DNA from: Methylobacter sp.
GTDB lineage: Bacteria; Pseudomonadota; Gammaproteobacteria; Methylococcales; Methylomonadaceae
NCBI GenBank assembly: GCA_030655535.1
Contig: JAURVK010000074.1
Coordinates: 1 to 51,514, forward strand
Direction of reading: 5' to 3'
Length of the DNA: 51,514 nucleotides
Below are positions 6,316-51,514 of the stretch, piece after piece; within the stretch, counting starts at the first letter, position 1, and the number at the start of each line of letters is the position of its first letter. A program made the translations under genes and the position numbers. Below the pieces are notes generated by a model. It worked only from the letters and a program-made list of their open reading frames with translations, was not told the DNA's origin and searched no databases.

Positions 6316-6340
6316 CGTCAGAATCGAGCTGAAAAAATTA

Positions 6341-6436
6341 TCTACCACAGAGAACACGAAGGACACGGAGAAAATAACAGCATTAATTCAATGCATTAAA
6401 AACTTCGTACTCTCCGTGTTCTTCGTGGTTATTTCT
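6341..6436. repeat. MITE-like dispersed repeat (copy 1), ACCACAGAGAACACGAAGGACACGGAGA ... TCTCCGTGTTCTTCGTGGT
   Basis: Imperfect terminal inverted repeats; second copy at 48297-48410. Confidence 0.85.
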
Positions 6437-6474
6437 TATATCTATGCTAAAAACGAATTTTTCACAGCCTCTCG

Positions 6475-6955: not shown

Positions 6956-7003
6956 CTGGAGTGCAAGCTTTGCTTGCGTTTGCAGGCGAAGCCTGCACTC
7001 CGG
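6956..7003. repeat. REP-like palindrome family A copy 1 (CTGGAGTGCAAGCTTTGCTTGCG..GCAGGCGAAGCCTGCACTCCGG)
   Basis: Shares arms with 13756, 38743, 46963 and 51469 copies. Confidence 0.9.
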
Positions 7004-13755: not shown

Positions 13756-13804
13756 CTGGAGTGCAGGCTTTGCCTGCAAGCACAAGCAAAGCTTGCACTC
13801 CTGG
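13756..13804. repeat. REP-like palindrome family A copy 2
   Basis: CTGGAGTGCAGGCTTTGCCTGCAAGCACAAGCAAAGCTTGCACTCCTGG; almost identical to the copy at 51469-51514. Confidence 0.92.
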
Positions 13805-13895: not shown

Positions 13896-14852
13896 ATGTC
13901 AGATCCAAATAAAAAATCCACCCTACAATTTAACAAGTTACAAAAACATTTGCGGCATACGGTCGGCGATGCGATTGCCGACTACAATATGATCGAAAAC
14001 GGCGACAAGGTCATGGTGTGCTTATCCGGCGGCAAGGATTCGTTCACCCTGCTGGATATCCTGATGCACTTGCAAAAAACGGCGCCGGTCGAATTTGAAC
14101 TGATTGCGGTCAATCTGGATCAGAAGCAGCCCGGTTTTCCCGAGCACGTATTGCCGGAATACTTGGCATCGCTGGGTGTGCCGTATCATATTATCGAAAA
14201 AGATACTTACAGCGTGGTAAAACGAGTCATTCCCGAAGGCAATACCACCTGCGGGCTGTGTTCGCGTTTGCGGCGCGGCACTTTATACGGTTATGCCGAA
14301 GCCAACAATGTCACCAAAATCGCTTTGGGCCATCATCGCGACGACATACTTGAAACCTTTTTCCTGAATATTTTTTACGGCGGCAAATTAAAAGCGATGC
14401 CGCCCAAGTTGTTAAGCGACGATAAGAAAAATATTATTATCCGGCCTTTGGCGTACACCCGCGAAAAAGACATCGAACGCTTGGCGGTATTTAAAAATTA
14501 CCCGATTATTCCCTGCAACTTGTGCGGCTCCCAGGAAAACCTGCAACGTCAAGCCATGAAAGTCATGTTGAAAAGTTGGGATAAGCAGTTTCCGGGACGC
14601 TTAGAAACCATTTTTACCAGTCTGAAAAATGTCGCGCCCTCGCAGTTGGCCGATACGCAGTTATTCGATTTTGCCGGGTTAACGCGCAGCCAACAAGCCG
14701 AAGAACAGGTGATGACCTTTATCGCCAGGGATGGTGTGTATGCCGTAAACCTGCCGGGAGCAGGTTCGGCGATTGCCAGGGATGGAGTGTATGCCGCTAG
14801 CCAGTCGGGAGCTGGCGCGGCGAATGCCGGTTTGGACGTGTTGGCTCAGTGA
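13896..14852 (+). CDS. ttcA: tRNA 2-thiocytidine(32) synthetase
   Basis: PP-loop [34 protein letters not shown]-terminus carries two tandem IARDGVYA repeats. Confidence 0.93.
14722..14828 (+). repeat. Two tandem copies of in-frame dispersed element family B (ATYGCCAGGGATGGWGTGTATGCC...), 51-nt period
   Basis: Direct repeat within ttcA 3' coding region, peptide [34 protein letters not shown]. Confidence 0.92.
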
Positions 14853-22572: not shown

Positions 22573-22612
22573 TGGCGGTTTCTACCTCCTGCATCCGTGC
22601 AGTCGTGTCGCG
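22573..22612. repeat. Dispersed element family C, intergenic copy (TCTACCTCCTGCATCCGTGCAGTCGTG)
   Basis: Matches segments inside rpoS (39770) and nlpD (40540-40710). Confidence 0.75.
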
Positions 22613-24613: not shown

Positions 24614-26404
24614 TTAATAAAGGGGTTCACGATAAAACATCAGGATGATGCCAATCTGAAACAGGGCGGCAACAGAAATAAAACCGGCAATCTTCGCGAC
24701 TGCCAAGGATGGCGGCCGCGATTGCTTCCGGTAGTCGTCGGCATTCCCTCCATCCATGGCGGTCAGAAGTGTCGCAATCGGCAGGGAACCGATGCGACCG
24801 CCAGTTCCCGACAGGCTTGCGGCATACACACCATCCCTGGCGATATCTTTGCTTGGGTTATCCAATTTCAACTCCAGCCAGCGACCGCATGCCAGAATAA
24901 GAGAAAAAATTCCCATTGTGGTGTGGCCGACCTGGATAAGAAAAGCACTTTTGGCTTGAAAGCCTACATGTGAATGGGTCAGCAACATTAAACCGCCAAA
25001 AGCTGCCAGCAACGGAAAAACAAAAGGGAGTTTGCTGTTCGGGTTTTTGCTTATCCGGGCACTGAGTTCCATAATGCCGAGCACGAATACCAGTAAGGTC
25101 GCAATCCGGTGCTGTAACACCTCGCCGTTATTAAAAGTACTTTCCCAGAAGCCTATCGGCCCCAAGGGCCAGGTTTCTGCATCGCTACGGAAAAACAGGA
25201 AGATGCCCAGTCCGACGAAACCCAACGGCCAGTATTTGAAGTGTTCAAAGCCGGGCTTTTTTACATAAGACAGCATCGCAAAGAAGCTCATCAGCGTCAG
25301 GAAAATACCGGCAATGTTGTGGTTGTAGTTCGACCATTCGGTTGCCGCCAGGGAGGGAACTTGGCCGACAATGGCGACGCGTCCCGGCTCGCCCGCAATC
25401 AAATCCGTATGCGTTGGGGAGCTTGTTTGGGGAATTTGCGGGTTAAAGGTGTTCAGGACTTCCTGCCAACTTGCCGTCAGGTTTGGAATATCAATAGCCG
25501 GGGGCTGGGAGGCCAAGCTGGCGGCAGTAAACAACAAGGTGACCAAAACAAAGGTTTCCGCTTCAATGTAATAAGGAACGCGGTTATCTAATGCGTGATT
25601 ATTGCCGGAAAATTCGAATTCCACAACGGCGGATTTATTTAACCAGGCAAATCCCAAGGCGATGGTCATTAAGGTGACTTTTACCAGCAATAAATTGCCG
25701 TAGCCGGTACCGATCAGGCCGTTCCAGGTGTCGATGTATTGCAACGCAATAGGCAAGCCTGAGATCAGGATCATCGCAATCGAGGCTATGCCGAACGTAG
25801 AGAAACGCTTAAGCAATAAAGGCCATAATCCGGCGTCAACCTGATTATTGCTGCGTAACAGCCAAAGGTTGACCAGCTGAAAAACTCCGCCGATCCAGGC
25901 TGCTGCGGCCAGTTCATGGATGACTGTCAGCGCCATTAATAGTAATTGATTTTCAAAGCGTCCAGCGCCATGTACCAGCCAAGCGCCGGAAATAATCATC
26001 GGCAAGGCTACGATACCGGCGGTTACCCAGTGCTGTTTGGAAAATGGATTTCTGCTGAGGTATCGATAGCAGTATGTTGCTAAAAATAGAGTCAGTATCG
26101 TACGTACTATGCCGCCTACGAATTGCGTGGTTTCGGCGAATTCGGGAAACGGCGAGCGCTCAAGGACGGCGGCCATTAACCATACTTTAAGGATTATTTT
26201 GAAAAGTTGGGCGGCAGCCAGCCAAAAGCCGCCTTTGTATAAAAGAGTGATGGTTTTTTGCAGTAATAGCCCTGAGTATCCGTCTTGGTACTGCCACGGG
26301 CGTAACACAAAAAGTCCCCAGAACAGGCTGCCGATTGCTAACGAATAGCAAATCAGGTCAAACCCGCCAATCAGAGAATCGAGAAAATCAGCTATGCCGG
26401 CCAT
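24614..26404 (-). CDS. copD: CopD-family copper resistance membrane protein with in-frame repeat insertion
   Basis: Multi-TM; adjacent to copC; contains [33 protein letters not shown] segment between TM segments. Confidence 0.75.
24737..24846 (-). repeat. Dispersed element family B inside copD (one full copy plus an adjacent degenerate copy)
   Basis: Reverse complement of ATCGCCAGGGATGGTGTGTATGCCGCAAGCCTGTCGGGAACTGGCGGTCGCATC. Confidence 0.88.
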
Positions 26405-28310: not shown

Positions 28311-30941
28311 TTAAATGCTTTTGCCGCTGAAAGCAGGCAGGACTATTAAAGAACACGTCACTGTGAAAGTAAGGCCTATGGCCAAGAGTAATCCCATGCT
28401 GGCCATGCCCTGATGAGCGGTGAAAGCTAAGCTGGAAAAACTGCACAAAGTCGTTACGGAGCTGAAAATAATGCCTCGGGTAGTGCTGCTTTGCAGTAAA
28501 TTTTCATCCTCGCCTATGGAGTGGTGCCTGTGCATGATCAGGATGCTGCTGTCGATACCTATGCCCAGCAGTAACGGCAGGGCGATGATATTGGCAAAAT
28601 TGAATGGATTATCCAGTAATACGTTGGTCGCACCGGTTAACAAAGCGGCAAGCAATAATGGCATGACAACCAGCAAGGTCTTTCTGACGCTTCTGTACAT
28701 CAGCAATAATAACACCACAATGGCAATAAAAGCACCGCTAAAGGCTTTGATAAATGCCTTGACTACCGCGTCACCACCCGCCTGATTGATGATCGGCAGG
28801 CCGGAAATTGTGTCGTTAATCGCCTGCACTTGGGTGGCAAATTCTTTCAGATTTTCAGGATTATTTTGGTCTTTTTCAGGCGTGATCAGCACTCTATAAA
28901 GACCGGTAGCGCTGACCCAGTGAGAGCTTATGTATTTCGGTAGATCATCCAGTCCAAAAGGCATGGCAGTCAGACTGGTTCTGAGTCGTTCTAGAGTAAA
29001 CGGCAGTAGACCTAAAATATTTTTTTCCAGTTGTATGTAACCGGCTGTTGGCGTTTGAGTGGCGTTCGTCTGTTTCATGAACGCTTCGATACGCTGATGT
29101 AATTGCGCTAAGGTTTGTTGCGGCAGATCAGGGGATTTTTCAATAATGGCTTTTTTCAGCACTTCATTAAATTTAATCAAAGCGGCCTGCTGATTGGTGT
29201 TATCAAGTGTGCCGTCAAAATTTTCAAGTTGCCCGCCCAGCATCAAATTTAAATCTTCAATAGTATCCAGCTTCTGATCCTGATCAAGAGCCACAAAACT
29301 GGCCAAGGTGATGACTTCGTGGACAGATGACTGTTGCTCCAGTTGAGCGGTGATTTTGTCGGCGGCTTCCAGATTGTTTGCCAATGCGGTTAGGGCGAAC
29401 GGGGATTCGGTTTTGGACTTTAATAATTCTTTAATGGTTGAAACCGATTCGCTGTTTGGGTCTCTGAGATTAATAGGGTTGTTATCAAAGGTAAGATGGG
29501 TCAATACAAAGCAGGCACCGATGCCCAGCAATAGGGAGACGACTTTGATGCCGGTTGCAAAGCGAAAAGGGAAGGCGATGATAAATGCTGAGATTAATGG
29601 TGAGCGGATCGGCTTAACATTATTGACCGGTAAAATGCAGAAGAAAGCCGGCAATACGGTTAGTGAAATAATCAGGCCGATAAAGATACCGCCGCCCGAA
29701 ATAATGCCCAATTCGGATACGCCCGCATAATCTGTGGGTATAAACGCAAGAAAACCAATCGCTGTGGACAGGGCGCATAAGAGCAATGAAGAGCCGACAT
29801 CGCGGATGCTGACCAGGATGGCTTCGCTATTGGGCAGACCTTTTGCTCTGCCTTCGCGATAATGCAGGCAGATATGTATCGCGTAATCTACCCCCAGTCC
29901 GATATATAAACAGGCAAAGGCGATGGAAATGACATTTAAATGTCCTACGCTGATGGCGGCAAATCCGGCTGTAAATATCAAGCCCATAACCAGGACGAGA
30001 GAGGTGGCAATCAGTAGCTTTATTGAACGCAGGGCTATCCATTGAATTACGCACACTAAAATCAGTGACAACAAGCCGGCGAAAGCAGCGCCTTTGCTGA
30101 CACTTTCAAGCTCTTCGTGTTCCAGAGCGGTCTCGCCGGTTATACGTATGCTCAGTGACGGGTTTTCAGCCATGATTGTACGACTGATTTCTCGCGCTGC
30201 CGACAGCGCGATATCGGCAGGCAGCATTTCATCAAAATGCATTTTAGGCTTGGCGATGACGATAGTCCGGTTGAATTTGGTCTGCGCTCCGGCATCCTTG
30301 TAGTCGTCGGTATTCGGCTTGTTTTCGGCCAGTATGTTTTGCCAGGACAAATAGTGCGCTTGACCGTTTAACTGATTCTTGAGGGTATCGTCAATGGCAA
30401 TCAGTATCGGATTCAGGTTCATAGGCAAGCTATCGTCATGCCGGTTAAGCGCCTGACCGATAATGCCGAACAGGCCTTCAAGATGATAATTCTGAGCCAA
30501 GTGGCCTATAAAGGGTTGGGCATCGGTGAGTTTTTTGGCCAATTTATCCAGGTCGTTTTGATCGAGATAAAGCAAGGCCTGCTGTTTGAAAAAGGCATTG
30601 TCGGTGGGTATATAGACGGAGCCGAAGCGATCTTTGGCATTGCCTAACTGTTCGGCAAGTTTGCCTGCAGCTTGAGAGGTTTCTTCCGGCGTTGCGGCAT
30701 CAACCACAAAAATAATGGTGTCGGCATCCTGGGGAAATGCCTGATTTAAACGGGCCTGATTTTGCTGGAAAGGCAGGTCGGGAGACAACATCTCAGCGGT
30801 GTTGGTGTTAATCTCCAGATTTTTAATGGTGTAGGGCAAGGTTGCGCCGCACAGCAATAGCGATAGCAACAACAGCGTCCACGGACAGCGCATGATTTGC
30901 CGTTCGCACCAGTTAAGAAGAGTGTTGAAAAAAGATGACAT
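28311..30941 (-). CDS. hpnN: Hopanoid transporter, RND/MMPL family (HpnN)
   Basis: Two MMPL/RND modules, GLGVDYAIHICLHYREG and LGIGIDSSILIMHRH; cluster context. Confidence 0.85.
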   Translation of the reverse strand: MSSFFNTLLNWCERQIMRCPWTLLLLSLLLCGATLPYTIKNLEINTNTAEMLSPDLPFQQNQARLNQAFPQDADTIIFVVDAATPEETSQAAGKLAEQLGNAKDRFGSVYIPTDNAFFKQQALLYLDQNDLDKLAKKLTDAQPFIGHLAQNYHLEGLFGIIGQALNRHDDSLPMNLNPILIAIDDTLKNQLNGQAHYLSWQNILAENKPNTDDYKDAGAQTKFNRTIVIAKPKMHFDEMLPADIALSAAREISRTIMAENPSLSIRITGETALEHEELESVSKGAAFAGLLSLILVCVIQWIALRSIKLLIATSLVLVMGLIFTAGFAAISVGHLNVISIAFACLYIGLGVDYAIHICLHYREGRAKGLPNSEAILVSIRDVGSSLLLCALSTAIGFLAFIPTDYAGVSELGIISGGGIFIGLIISLTVLPAFFCILPVNNVKPIRSPLISAFIIAFPFRFATGIKVVSLLLGIGACFVLTHLTFDNNPINLRDPNSESVSTIKELLKSKTESPFALTALANNLEAADKITAQLEQQSSVHEVITLASFVALDQDQKLDTIEDLNLMLGGQLENFDGTLDNTNQQAALIKFNEVLKKAIIEKSPDLPQQTLAQLHQRIEAFMKQTNATQTPTAGYIQLEKNILGLLPFTLERLRTSLTAMPFGLDDLPKYISSHWVSATGLYRVLITPEKDQNNPENLKEFATQVQAINDTISGLPIINQAGGDAVVKAFIKAFSGAFIAIVVLLLLMYRSVRKTLLVVMPLLLAALLTGATNVLLDNPFNFANIIALPLLLGIGIDSSILIMHRHHSIGEDENLLQSSTTRGIIFSSVTTLCSFSSLAFTAHQGMASMGLLLAIGLTFTVTCSLIVLPAFSGKSI

Positions 30942-31666: not shown

Positions 31667-33675
31667 TTTTTATCGCCAGGGATGGTGTGTATGCCACAAG
31701 CCGGTAGGGAACCGGCGTGGCGATCGCCCTTGAGCTCGTTACGGTAACGCGCTAATGCCCAAAGCGGGAAGAACTTGTCGTAACCGTGGTATTTAAGATA
31801 GAAAACTTTAGGAAAGCCGGGCGCAGTAAAGCATTCGTCATTCCATACGCCGTCAGCTTGCTGGTTGCGCAAGATGAAATCGATGCCTGCTTTGACTTCA
31901 GGACTGTGCGCCTCGCCGGCAGCCATGAGTCCTAAGACGGCCCAGGCCGTTTGGAATGCAGTGCTGAAACGATATTTTCCGCTATGGCTGGTATCGTGAT
32001 AGCTGTAGTTGTCTTCGCCCCAGCCGCCATCGCCGCGTTGTACGCTTTTTAGCCATGTTGCGGCTTTGGTGTAAAGCGGATCGCTTTTAGGCAGGCTGGT
32101 TTGCTCGAGTCCAAGTAATACCGACCATGTGCCGTAGATGTAGTTGGTTCCCCAGCGGCCAAACCATGAACCGTTTTGTTCCTGTTCGCTACGGATATAG
32201 TCGATAGTACGCTCTAGCGCAGGCAGGTATTCATCATGATTCTGCGCTACTCTAGCCATCAGCATTGCGCAGCGTGCGCTGACATCGGAAGTAGGCGGAT
32301 CTAATAACGCGCCATGATCGGCAAAGGGGATTTCGTTCAAGTAATAATAGGTATTATCGACATCGAATGCGCCGTAACCGCCGTTTTTAGATTGCATGCC
32401 GACTATCCAACGGGTAGCACGATGTATCGATTCATCCAGATGCGGCAGGTTCGATTCCGCCATGGCGAAGGCGACAACTGCCGTGTCGTCGACATCGGGG
32501 TAATACGGGTTTTCAAATTGAAATGCCCAGCCGCCGCCTGCTAAATCAGGCTTGGAAATTCGCCAATCACCCGGCTCGTCGGACAGTTGTTTGCTTTTAA
32601 GCCAGTCGTAGGCGCGAGTCAGGCTTTGGCTGTTGCCTATTTTGTCGGATTCCTGTAAAGCCAGTGCGGCCAGCCCTGTATCCCAAACCGGGGACAAACA
32701 GGGCTGGCAGTAGGCGTCATGTTCATTGATAACTAATAATTTGTCGATTGCTTTACGCGCGGTGACGACGAACTCATGATCTTTAGGCATGCCAAGCAGC
32801 AGTAAAGCCTCGTAAGCGGCCATCATCGCCGGAGAAATTCCACCCAGGCCATCTTCGCCGTTCAGGCGTTCGATAATCCAGTCTTTGGCTTTTTCGATGG
32901 CGAGATTGTGCAGTTTTTTGGGGATTAACGGCCGTGTTGCTCGGCCCAGTTTGTCCAAGCCCAGAAAAATCTTATTTAATGTTGTTCTTTCAGGAAAGTA
33001 GTGCTGTTCTTCATCCGGGTGGGTGGTGAACAGTTCCAGTATATCAATGTTGTTTGGATTTTTTGCGGTCGCTTTTAAGGTGCAAAGAATAAACAGCGGT
33101 ACCATAACGGTTCTGGACCAATAGGATACTTTATCCAAATGGAAGGGGAACCAGTTGGGAAGCAGCATGATTTCGACAGGAATATACGGAACGCCGCGCC
33201 AGGGTAATTGCTCAAAGGTTGCCAGCGCAATGCGTGTGAATACGTTGGCTTTTGCCGCACCACCTTGGTTGAGAATATAATTTCTTAATCGGGTCATGTG
33301 CGGTGCGTCGACAGAATCTCCCGCCATTTTCAAGGCGAAATAGGCTTTAACGCTGCAACTAAGGTCGCCCGCACCGCCGGTAAACAGCGGGTAGCTGCCA
33401 TTTTCAGCTTGACGAGATCTTAGATAGTTGGCAATTTTGGCCTGTAGCGGCTGATCAATTTCACCTAGGTAGTGCAGCATCATGATGTATTCTGACGGGA
33501 TCGAGCAGTCTGCCTCCAATTCGAATACCCAATAGCCGTCTTTGTCCTGCAGGCTTAATAATTTATCCTGCGCTTTGCTGATGGCTCGATTGAGATCGGT
33601 TGTGTAGTGATTAACGGTATTCGAGGAACTCGAAATAGTGCCGGTATTGATCTCTGAATTTGCTTCGTTAAACAT
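31663..33675 (-). CDS. shc: Squalene-hopene cyclase
   Basis: DVDDTAVV, QW-type repeats (QNGSWFGRWGTNYIYGTWSVL, GDGGWGED). Confidence 0.95.
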   Translation of the reverse strand: MFNEANSEINTGTISSSSNTVNHYTTDLNRAISKAQDKLLSLQDKDGYWVFELEADCSIPSEYIMMLHYLGEIDQPLQAKIANYLRSRQAENGSYPLFTGGAGDLSCSVKAYFALKMAGDSVDAPHMTRLRNYILNQGGAAKANVFTRIALATFEQLPWRGVPYIPVEIMLLPNWFPFHLDKVSYWSRTVMVPLFILCTLKATAKNPNNIDILELFTTHPDEEQHYFPERTTLNKIFLGLDKLGRATRPLIPKKLHNLAIEKAKDWIIERLNGEDGLGGISPAMMAAYEALLLLGMPKDHEFVVTARKAIDKLLVINEHDAYCQPCLSPVWDTGLAALALQESDKIGNSQSLTRAYDWLKSKQLSDEPGDWRISKPDLAGGGWAFQFENPYYPDVDDTAVVAFAMAESNLPHLDESIHRATRWIVGMQSKNGGYGAFDVDNTYYYLNEIPFADHGALLDPPTSDVSARCAMLMARVAQNHDEYLPALERTIDYIRSEQEQNGSWFGRWGTNYIYGTWSVLLGLEQTSLPKSDPLYTKAATWLKSVQRGDGGWGEDNYSYHDTSHSGKYRFSTAFQTAWAVLGLMAAGEAHSPEVKAGIDFILRNQQADGVWNDECFTAPGFPKVFYLKYHGYDKFFPLWALARYRNELKGDRHAGSLPACGIHTIPGDKN
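31671..31729 (+). repeat. Dispersed element family B at shc 3' end
   Basis: ATCGCCAGGGATGGTGTGTATGCCACAAGCCGGTAGGGAACCGGCGTGGCGAT; translated antisense as [21 protein letters not shown]. Confidence 0.9.
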
Positions 33676-38886: not shown

Positions 38887-39936
38887 TTAATTGAAAATAG
38901 TTTCGAAAGAATAGCCGTTGCATTCCATGATTTCTTTCATTCTTTTTAATCCATCCATTTGGATTTGTCTGACACGCTCTCGGGTTACGCCCAACTCTTG
39001 AGCAACCTGCTCAAGGGTAGAGTCTTCATAACCGCAAAGCCCATAGCGGCGACAAATAACTTCGCGTTGTTTTTCAGAAAGTTGAAACACCCATTTGGCA
39101 ATGTTATGTCTGATACCGTCTTCTTGTATTTTCTCAGCGGGCGATAAGCTGTCGCTATCAGAAATCGACTCTACCAAGGGTTTATCAAAATCCTTGCCGG
39201 CCGACATGTCTATTGATGTAACCCGCTCGTTGAGTTTAAGCATTTTTTCGACTTTATTAACCGGTATGTCCAGATGAACTGCAATATCTCTGGCATTAGG
39301 TTCATGATCGAGTAACTGTGCCAAATGACGTTGAGCTTTAAGATAAGTGTTCATTTCCTTGACAATATGAATCGGCAAACGGATGGTTCGCGTTTGATTC
39401 ATAATGGCTCGTTCAATAGTTTGCCTGATCCACCAAGTGGCATAGGTTGAAAATCTAAAACCTCTTTCAGGATCAAATTTTTCAACTGCGTGCATCAAGC
39501 CCAGATTGCCTTCCTCAATCAAATCCAGTAACGGCAAGCCTCTGTTCAGGTAACGACGGGAGATTTTAACGACTAGGCGTAAATTGCTTTCGATCATGAT
39601 TTTGCGGGCAGCTTCATCGCCTAGCAAAGCCCTGGATCCGTAAAGTTTTTCTTGGTCGGCAGTCAGTAATTGTGATCGAGATAGTTCGTTTAAATAAACC
39701 CGTGTCGCATCAATGCTTTTATCTTGCTGCGAGGTATTGGTAATTGTCTCGTCAGTATCCTCGGTTTGTGCGCCATGCATTGTTCTACCTCCTGTATTCA
39801 TGCAGTCGAATACCTCAGCGATAGCGGAATTTTTCTGAGGTTCATCGTCAAAAGACAAATCATCAAATAACACACAAACATCATCGTCTAACATACAAAC
39901 ATCATCGTCCAATAGCTCAACTAATTCTGCTTTCAT
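38887..39936 (-). CDS. rpoS: RNA polymerase sigma factor RpoS
   Basis: Sigma70 regions 1.2-4 ([37 protein letters not shown]); downstream of nlpD. Confidence 0.93.
39770..39812 (-). repeat. Dispersed element family C inside rpoS N-terminal coding region
   Basis: TGCGCCATGCATTGTTCTACCTCCTGTATTCATGCAGTCGAATAC; peptide [15 protein letters not shown]. Confidence 0.8.
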
Positions 39937-39979: not shown

Positions 39980-41002
39980 TTATTTGCCCGGTAAAAGGTT
40001 AAGTGGATTTACCGGTTTTCCGTTTTTTCTTATTTCGAAATGCAGCGACGCTTGGTTTGATCCCGCTTGGCCTGCTTTTGCAATAACCTCACCTTTGCTC
40101 ACTGTACGGCCCTCTGTAACAAGCAGTTGGCTGTTATTGGCATAAGCGCTTAAATACAAATCGTTGTGTTTGATAATAAGCAAATTACCGTAGCCAATCA
40201 GGCCTTGTCCGCTATAGACAACTTTACCTGCTTCAGCCGCACTCACGTCTTGTCCTGTTTTTCCGGCTATATCAATGCCTTTGTTATGGGCTGGAGAAAA
40301 ATATTTTAAAACTTTTCCTTTGATTGGCCATTGAAAGTTTAACTTTAACATGTTTCTATTATCAATTGAAATAATTGATTTTTTTTGTGATCTTGTTCCG
40401 GATTTAATCGCGATATTTTTAATCGACTGGATTTTATCAGTCGGATTCGGTTTGTTATTTAACGGAATGGCATTTGTATTCTGTGAGTTCATTTTATTTA
40501 TTACAGTTGCCGTTACGATTTTTTTATTTGTCCCGGCAATTGCTCCATGCATTGCTCTCGGCAACTGCTCCATGCGTTGCTCTACCTCCCCCGTCCGTGG
40601 GGTCGTACCTCCTCCGTCCATGGAGTCGTCGGTAACGGTTTCTGCTTTTGGCGGCCGTTCCATGTGTCGCTCTATCGGGGTTGTGCTTCCTGCATTCGTG
40701 TGGTCGTACGTGGATATGCTTTCCAAGTTCGGGTCGGAGAGTCTGATTTTTTGATTTATTTCTATCGTATAAGGGGAGGCGATCCGGTTCCATTGCGCTA
40801 ATTGCCGATAATCCATGTCATAAATCAGGCTTATTCCATACAAGGTGTCGCCTTTTTTTACCTGATGATATTTTGTATCGTCTTTTGCAATATCAGGGTT
40901 ATTTGTGCTGACAGGGGCATAGTTTTGCGGTATTTCCGCACAGCCATTCAGTAAAGCCGGCAGTATTGCAATAAAAACAAGCTTTGAATTAGTGGATGTC
41001 AT
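39980..41002 (-). CDS. nlpD: LysM + M23 peptidase domain lipoprotein
   Basis: Lipobox LNGCAE, Lys[17 protein letters not shown]23 [25 protein letters not shown]; upstream of rpoS. Confidence 0.9.
40540..40710 (-). repeat. Cluster of about three family C element copies within nlpD
   Basis: Repeats of TCCATGCATTGCTCT / TCCATGCGTTGCTCTACCTCCCCCGTCCGTGGGGTCGTACC / TCCATGTGTCGCTCTATC..TTCCTGCATTCGTGTGGTCGTACG. Confidence 0.82.
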
Positions 41003-41503: not shown

Positions 41504-41659
41504 GGTTTACTCCTGGATTAATGATCTGTTTAAGGCCGCTCTCAAGGCTTTTCCCCTTACCTATATCTGCGGCGGCCATGGATGGTGCGAATGCCGTAAG
41601 ACTGTTAGAGCGTTCACGACCACGTATCCATAGTATTTGAATAAATAATACCTTAAAAT

Positions 41660-46962: not shown

Positions 46963-47010
46963 ATGGAGTGCAGGCTTTGCCTGCAAGGGCGGGCAAAGCC
47001 TGCACTCCGG
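46963..47010. repeat. REP-like palindrome family A copy 4
   Basis: TGGAGTGCAGGCTTTGCCTGCAAGGGCGGGCAAAGCCTGCACTCCGG; near-perfect palindrome. Confidence 0.93.
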
Positions 47011-48278: not shown

Positions 48279-48296
48279 CGTGCGGGACTGTGAAGA

Positions 48297-48410
48297 ATTA
48301 TTTACCACAGAGGACACGAAGAATACGAAGGAAATAATTATGTTAATTCAATGTGTTGAAAACTTCGTACTCTTCGTGATCTCCGCGTCCTTCGTGGTTA
48401 TTCTTTTAAT
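48297..48410. repeat. MITE-like dispersed repeat (copy 2)
   Basis: ACCACAGAGGACACGAAGAATACGAAGG...AACTTCGTACTCTTCGTG...TCCTTCGTGGT; matches 6341-6436. Confidence 0.85.
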
Positions 48411-48431
48411 GTCTACTGAAAATATAATTCC

Positions 48432-51410: not shown

Positions 51411-51468
51411 GGTAACTTCTTCATAAAATTAGGCGATGTCACCTTTAATGGTGAAAACGGCTGATTAC

Positions 51469-51514
51469 TGGAGTGCAGGTTTTGCCTGCAAGCACAAGCA
51501 AAGCTTGCACTCCT
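51469..51514. repeat. REP-like palindrome family A copy 5 (reaches window edge)
   Basis: CTGGAGTGCAGGTTTTGCCTGCAAGCACAAGCAAAGCTTGCACTCCT. Confidence 0.9.

Follow-up and report, generated by a model that had tools for sequence, protein, structure and literature searches.

The repeat units in the NlpD linker of Methylobacter sp. are copies of a dispersed 47/48-bp double-hairpin DNA element, nearly all of which is hairpin. This element is very probably (roughly 85%) non-autonomous mobile DNA of 47–48 bp, comparable to REPs and to Rickettsia palindromic elements. The combination of a two-hairpin family, a wide and patchy range, length classes split by location, in-frame self-nesting and repeated change at one site in rpoS appears to be new. 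A literature search by short sequence words returned no report of the element; figures lie outside such a search, and absence from it is not proof.

Element anatomy and fold

The element has the layout CGAC-stem1-NGGA-stem1'-GGAGGTAG-A-stem2-loop-stem2'-CCGA, and the minus strand is the reading that best suits the window (the whole stretch of 51,514 bp analysed here). Loops, linker and ends are constant, and the stems co-vary. Copies excised with a stem-free pattern are 47 bp (n = 84), 48 bp (n = 85) or, in four cases, longer. An earlier note, made from the sequence of the window alone, had described a repeat with a varying palindromic core and co-varying arms. The repeats and the covariation stand, but the natural unit is the 47/48-bp double hairpin on the minus strand, and the variable part is in fact stem 1, which surrounds a constant NGGA loop.

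Hairpin 1 consists of C and four pairs, NGGA, then four pairs and G; CA-NGGA-TG is invariant, and the outer stem positions vary on both sides. Among distinct variants from a stem-free search, stem pairing reaches 84% (shuffle maximum 76%) with 28 double changes in the stems (shuffle maximum 19). Because kin sequences may exceed such shuffles, we place the weight of the covariation on the distinct arm sets around NGGA, namely TGCA/TGCA, TCCA/TGGA, CCCA/TGGG, TACA/TGTA and GCCA/TGGC. In hairpin 2, C:G is exchanged for T:A (104 and 43 copies, with 3 mixed), and the extrahelical A is retained despite replacement of the stem (GCAAC..GTTGC versus ATCGC..GCGAT). This hairpin folds more strongly as ssDNA than its shuffles, and DNA parameters give stronger folding relative to shuffles than RNA parameters do. 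A single base separates the motif GTAG from the foot of hairpin 2, which is bulged (GGTAG-A-hairpin 2, the A being extrahelical). An Rfam search of the window gave no match.

Copies in nlpD, rpoS and the rest of the window

The repeats, and both peptides into which the earlier note had translated them, are present in nlpD as described (Table 1). That the repeats had expanded in the NlpD linker is, however, a misleading description, as a genome-wide mobile element has landed in the linker and in its own earlier copy. On the minus strand the order is CGACTCCATGGACGGAGGAGGTA, CGACCCCACGGACGGGGGAGGTAGAGCAACGCATGGAGCAGTTGCCGA, GAGCAATGCATGGAGCAATTGCCGG, and the linker copies span 40533-40706. One 48-bp unit thus lies inside another, split between GGTA and GAGC, so these copies are not tandem repeats. 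Judged from the reading frame, insertion of the element has lengthened the flexible linker of NlpD and left the gene unbroken. Nor is NlpD special: a copy occurs in the neighbouring rpoS (38887-39936), which adjoins nlpD, the left half of an element lies elsewhere in the window, and many other genes are affected. A further candidate at 30281-30306, with 69% identity to the reference, is probably a chance match and not a copy.

Table 1. Element copies in the window, with the host gene nlpD
Feature	Position	Strand	Description
nlpD CDS	39980..41002	minus	340-aa lipoprotein; LysM and M23 domains as named in the earlier note
Older decayed copy	about 40648-40706	minus	Boundaries approximate; encodes the 18-letter peptide of the earlier note; common to G006
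Outer element, left part	40606..40628	minus	CGAC, hairpin 1 (CTCC/GGAG), GGAGGTA; 23 bp
Inner element, complete	40558..40605	minus	48 bp, CGACCCCACGGACGGGGGAGGTAGAGCAACGCATGGAGCAGTTGCCGA; divides the outer element
Outer element, right part	40533..40557	minus	Hairpin 2 GAGCAATGCATGGAGCAATTGCCGG; 25 bp (23 + 25 = 48 bp)
rpoS N-terminal copy	39761..39808	minus	48 bp, read as 17 protein letters
Left half of element	22580..22605	minus	Hairpin 1 and GGAGGTAG; intergenic

Each of the 23 genomes of the genus has an nlpD orthologue. A linker conserved across distant NlpD proteins would, according to the earlier note, have spoken against its reading; within the genus such conservation is absent, and of the 15 other readable orthologues, only that of genome G006 carries the inserts, sharing the older decayed copy as well as the element-in-element pair. 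The G006 protein has one additional copy, and tandem copies are present in it. A first copy may have entered the linker and since decayed, to be followed by the element-in-element pair, which could have arisen in two steps or arrived as a ready composite.

Copy number and distribution

The core pattern of the earlier note, allowing up to 3 mismatches, occurs at 38 places in the 2.76-Mb draft genome to which the window belongs (88% complete, 179 contigs), 26 of them exact. The reversed-pattern control gave 0, which places the repeats beyond chance. The 211-bp stretch itself, used as a query, found 43 matching places. The note had counted a lack of further copies as evidence against its reading; such copies are abundant. 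Across the genus, a search for the core TGCAGGAGGTAGAGCAAYGCA that allowed one mismatch found it in 23/23 Methylobacter genomes; the highest count in a single genome was 107 copies, and controls gave 0. The exact core occurs in 44/121 genomes of the family, covering 19/29 sampled genera, and is scattered over 19/369 genomes of the class, with Shewanella, Pseudoalteromonas, Neptunomonas, Endozoicomonas, Thiohalomonas and Sedimenticola among the named carriers. An identical core is thus patchily present across gammaproteobacterial families. Large Pseudoalteromonas replicons listed as plasmids carry the element outside their listed genes, and the core is present on six IMG/VR contigs; the phage records searched gave no match. 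The copies analysed in detail were drawn from loci that earlier searches had returned, and their counts are samples rather than censuses.

These results bear on a purely local origin, in which a protein-level repeat expanded within the NlpD linker and was selected for length. Several copies do lie within 180 bp, and the tandem copies of G006 look like such an expansion. The genome-wide copies already refute it, however: the same DNA is intergenic, enters many unrelated genes in five frames, is nested in NlpD and shares identical cores with other families. We regard this origin as extremely improbable.

Short stretches resembling the element also occur in pglX (BREX-1) on a Salmonella plasmid (NZ_CP133280.1, 11617-11653) and a Moellerella plasmid (NZ_CP093250.1, 127705-127741), where 37 nt of the element match at 97% identity in each case.

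Insertion sites and site history

Insertion is exact and leaves no target duplication. At 102 independent sites, the flanks have A at -1 in 81% and G at +1 in 90%, with conservation of the target to the left and right of the junction alike. Landing sites include the loops of other palindromic repeats, for example between CCGGTA and GGGAACCGG, as well as CACGAAG repeats and CCCTCTCCC repeats. The element also inserts into its own linker, between GGA and GGTAG and between GGTA and GAG. The 3' junction remakes the A-G target, which would account for tandem arrays that repeat every 47 or 48 bp. Long palindromic repeats of the CACGAAG/CTTCGTG type, which elsewhere in the genome are a favoured landing site, occur in the window at 6333-6453 and 48293-48422.

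The site in rpoS can be compared directly between sister species: it is empty in L331 (GCATTGGATATTGACG), and exactly 48 bp stand between T and G in L329. Together with the genome-wide copies and the co-varying stems, such exact occupied and empty site pairs give good support to the hairpin-preserving copying mechanism that the earlier note had suggested. Eight rpoS orthologues are filled at this site and 12 are empty. On the rpoS tree this distribution needs 7 changes of occupancy, at least 3 of them on well-supported branches, and a single clade of filled sites is rejected. Possible causes are precise loss on several occasions, several gains at the one site and local gene conversion. Because of the repeated change, one can test directly whether a REP-like element is excised precisely. 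Between sisters, L321 has a single copy and L323 a nested one, which indicates that nesting can follow a first insertion. The rpoS loci of two other Methylobacter species, L323 and L326, contain an element within an element at the same type of internal site as in NlpD.

Empty sites were also folded to see whether the junctions fall in loops, and the outcome was weak and inconsistent: coding sites were unpaired (p 0.017) and non-coding sites pair-enclosed (p 0.012), with null results otherwise.

Copies inside genes

Genes were defined by an open frame, and copies were assigned as coding or non-coding with an ORF test, which placed 42 of the classified copies in open genes and 61 outside. The two groups differ in length: 38/42 copies in open genes have 48 bp (16 codons), and 45/61 non-coding copies have 47 bp (Fisher p 4e-12 for 48 bp versus other lengths, coding versus non-coding). 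To some extent the ORF test itself produces this split, since the frame would not stay open after an insert of 47 bp. With just 15% of randomly chosen positions classed as non-coding, however, the 47-bp form does avoid genes. By predicted translation, the palindromic insert sits in frame in unrelated genes, on both strands and in five of the six frames, the remaining frame being the one in which the element has a TAG. Ten host proteins match Pfam families, and the match spans the insert in a nitrogenase component, an E1 dehydrogenase, a response regulator and TPR_21. The nitrogenase component 1 type protein (L204:3667-5136) has its in-frame copy inside the Pfam domain. Selection would retain the 48-bp form in genes, chiefly where a loop or linker tolerates an insert, and the inserted peptide may be filler.

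The hairpins might instead be kept for action in transcripts, where copies could recruit or titrate CsrA. In favour of this, the hairpin-1 loop CANGGATG agrees with CANGGANG, the motif bound by Rsm/CsrA (PMC6849547), and CA-NGGA-TG is constant within changing outer pairs. This reading of the loop is post hoc, however, and the copies have no orientation preference relative to neighbouring genes, lie on both strands and use five frames. Exact gain or loss would require a mobile element in any case, and we consider an RNA-level element very unlikely. A portable ribosome-binding site (AGGAGGT with ATG) was also considered and rejected, since 1/31 in-element ATGs opens an ORF of at least 60 codons.

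Proposed mobility and comparison with known systems

For mobile DNA of this kind, the lack of target duplication, the exact empty sites, the co-varying hairpins with an extrahelical base and the GTAG at hairpin 2 point to handling of single-stranded DNA by an HUH/Y1 enzyme. We propose that an enzyme acting in trans would recognize the folded single strand. It would most likely be a transposase of the HUH/Y1 type (IS200/IS605- or RAYT-like) that cuts and rejoins exactly and that reads the GTAG by the foot of hairpin 2 with its bulge. Handling of the folded strand by such an enzyme has, in our estimate, about an even chance of being correct.

Y1_Tnp genes are present in 23/23 genomes of the genus. 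A single copy of the element, near the edge of L282, was found among about 70 Methylobacter loci with Y1/RAYT genes, and 0/30 such loci of other carriers had one. The genes bracketed by neighbouring copies in Methylobacter tundripaludum, inspected by eye, included none recognizable as a transposase. Separated halves of the element, in a limited set, enclose only other repeats or nested copies, and no autonomous element encoding TnpA was seen there. Lagging-strand transposition of ssDNA would be expected to leave a bias towards one replication strand. Strand counts are 21 plus and 30 minus on contig 1 and 17 plus and 5 minus on contig 2, with GC skew too noisy for assignment to replication strands.

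These searches weigh on the closest alternative, a true GTAG REP family in which RAYT (TnpAREP) would move hairpin 2 as an ordinary REP, with hairpin 1 an attached partner. With its short stem, its bulge and a GTAG one base away from the foot, hairpin 2 is like the REPs of RAYT subclass 2.5, and the presence of Y1_Tnp genes throughout the genus agrees with this. REPs inside genes or in palindromic targets have been described, as have compensatory stem changes (PMC3733652), and in-frame REPs occur even within tnpAREP genes (PMC6006769). REPs are expected in many copies that lie chiefly between genes; the element reaches 107 copies in a genome, and the classified copies divide into 42 in open genes and 61 outside. 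The tested Y1 genes, however, lack the flanking copies that are the usual sign of a cognate pair. Head-tail REP dimers are moreover rare (PMC3733652), and here two hairpins form one fixed unit with different flanks. We therefore treat membership of a GTAG REP family as doubtful. Since the flanking test failed, we file the element as one resembling a REP or an IS200/IS605-type miniature element in the way it works, and not as a member of either group.

GTAG-/CGTC-tagged REPs (PMC3733652), intragenic ones included, resemble the element: they are short palindromes that have GTAG near the foot and compensatory stems, they sometimes insert into palindromes, and they have in-frame copies in genes. 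In the element, by contrast, two hairpins make up one fixed unit that has a left hairpin of its own (CGAC...NGGA); its 47/48-bp split and the lack of a transposase gene nearby are further differences. The repeats associated with RAYT/TnpAREP subclass 2.4 genes (PMC6006769) also make frame-keeping insertions in peripheral regions, but they flank and enter tnpAREP genes, whereas copies of the element flank no tested Y1 gene. Rickettsia palindromic elements, as summarized in PMC3733652, are likewise small mobile palindromes that add in-frame peptide blocks to unrelated proteins. By description they differ in sequence, size and host group (the hosts here being gammaproteobacteria), and many copies of the element lie between genes and are, at 47 bp, a little shorter; five frames are used. 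Miniature derivatives of IS200/IS605 share subterminal hairpins, one extrahelical base, the lack of target duplication and exact empty sites (in part after PMC6006769). The element differs from them in having a target conserved on both sides and no gene inside, and an autonomous parent was not found in the limited set. In IS200/IS605 elements, the 5' side of the target dominates. The SDRs of cyanobacteria, very small mobile repeats cited in PMC3733652, are tiny dispersed repeats nested in other repeats, a likeness to the element that goes with different sequence and hosts, again by description.

A bolder possibility, which we put forward tentatively and think rather unlikely, is that these are near-minimal, gene-less 48-bp two-hairpin transposons. 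They would be moved by a non-RAYT enzyme with exact excision and insertion, would spread between gammaproteobacterial families and would again and again add 16-codon blocks, at times nested ones, to core proteins such as RpoS, NlpD and a nitrogenase component. The element offers a clean natural system for studying the movement of very short palindromic repeats and the gain of protein segments. Its boundaries and target, its empty sites and the two length classes are all known to the base, and Methylobacter has cultured members (Methylobacter tundripaludum). It could also serve as a marker for finding its mobilizing enzyme.

Related repeats

A related-looking double-hairpin family, CGCCAGGGATGGTGTGTATGCC...CTGCCGGGAGCAGG, occurs in the window at 14718-14828, 24799-24845, 31669-31728 and 41574-41640. 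Its hairpin 1 has the same CA-NGGA-TG loop as the element, and its hairpin 2 has a GGGA loop; the linker is different. It is probably a sister family of the element. Families can also be nested: a double-hairpin element composed of CCACA-GGGA-TGTGG, GAATGC and AGATATTGC-AGGA-GCAAATATCT is inserted in the hairpin-1 loop of the 47/48-bp element in L046, L047, L056, L058, L059 and L060 (around 1440-1600). Another 47-bp palindromic repeat, GGAGTGCAGGCTTTGCCTGCA...TGCACTCC, is found in the window at 6956-7002, 13756-13802, 46963-47009 and 51468-51514, and resembles an ordinary GGAG-type REP pair.
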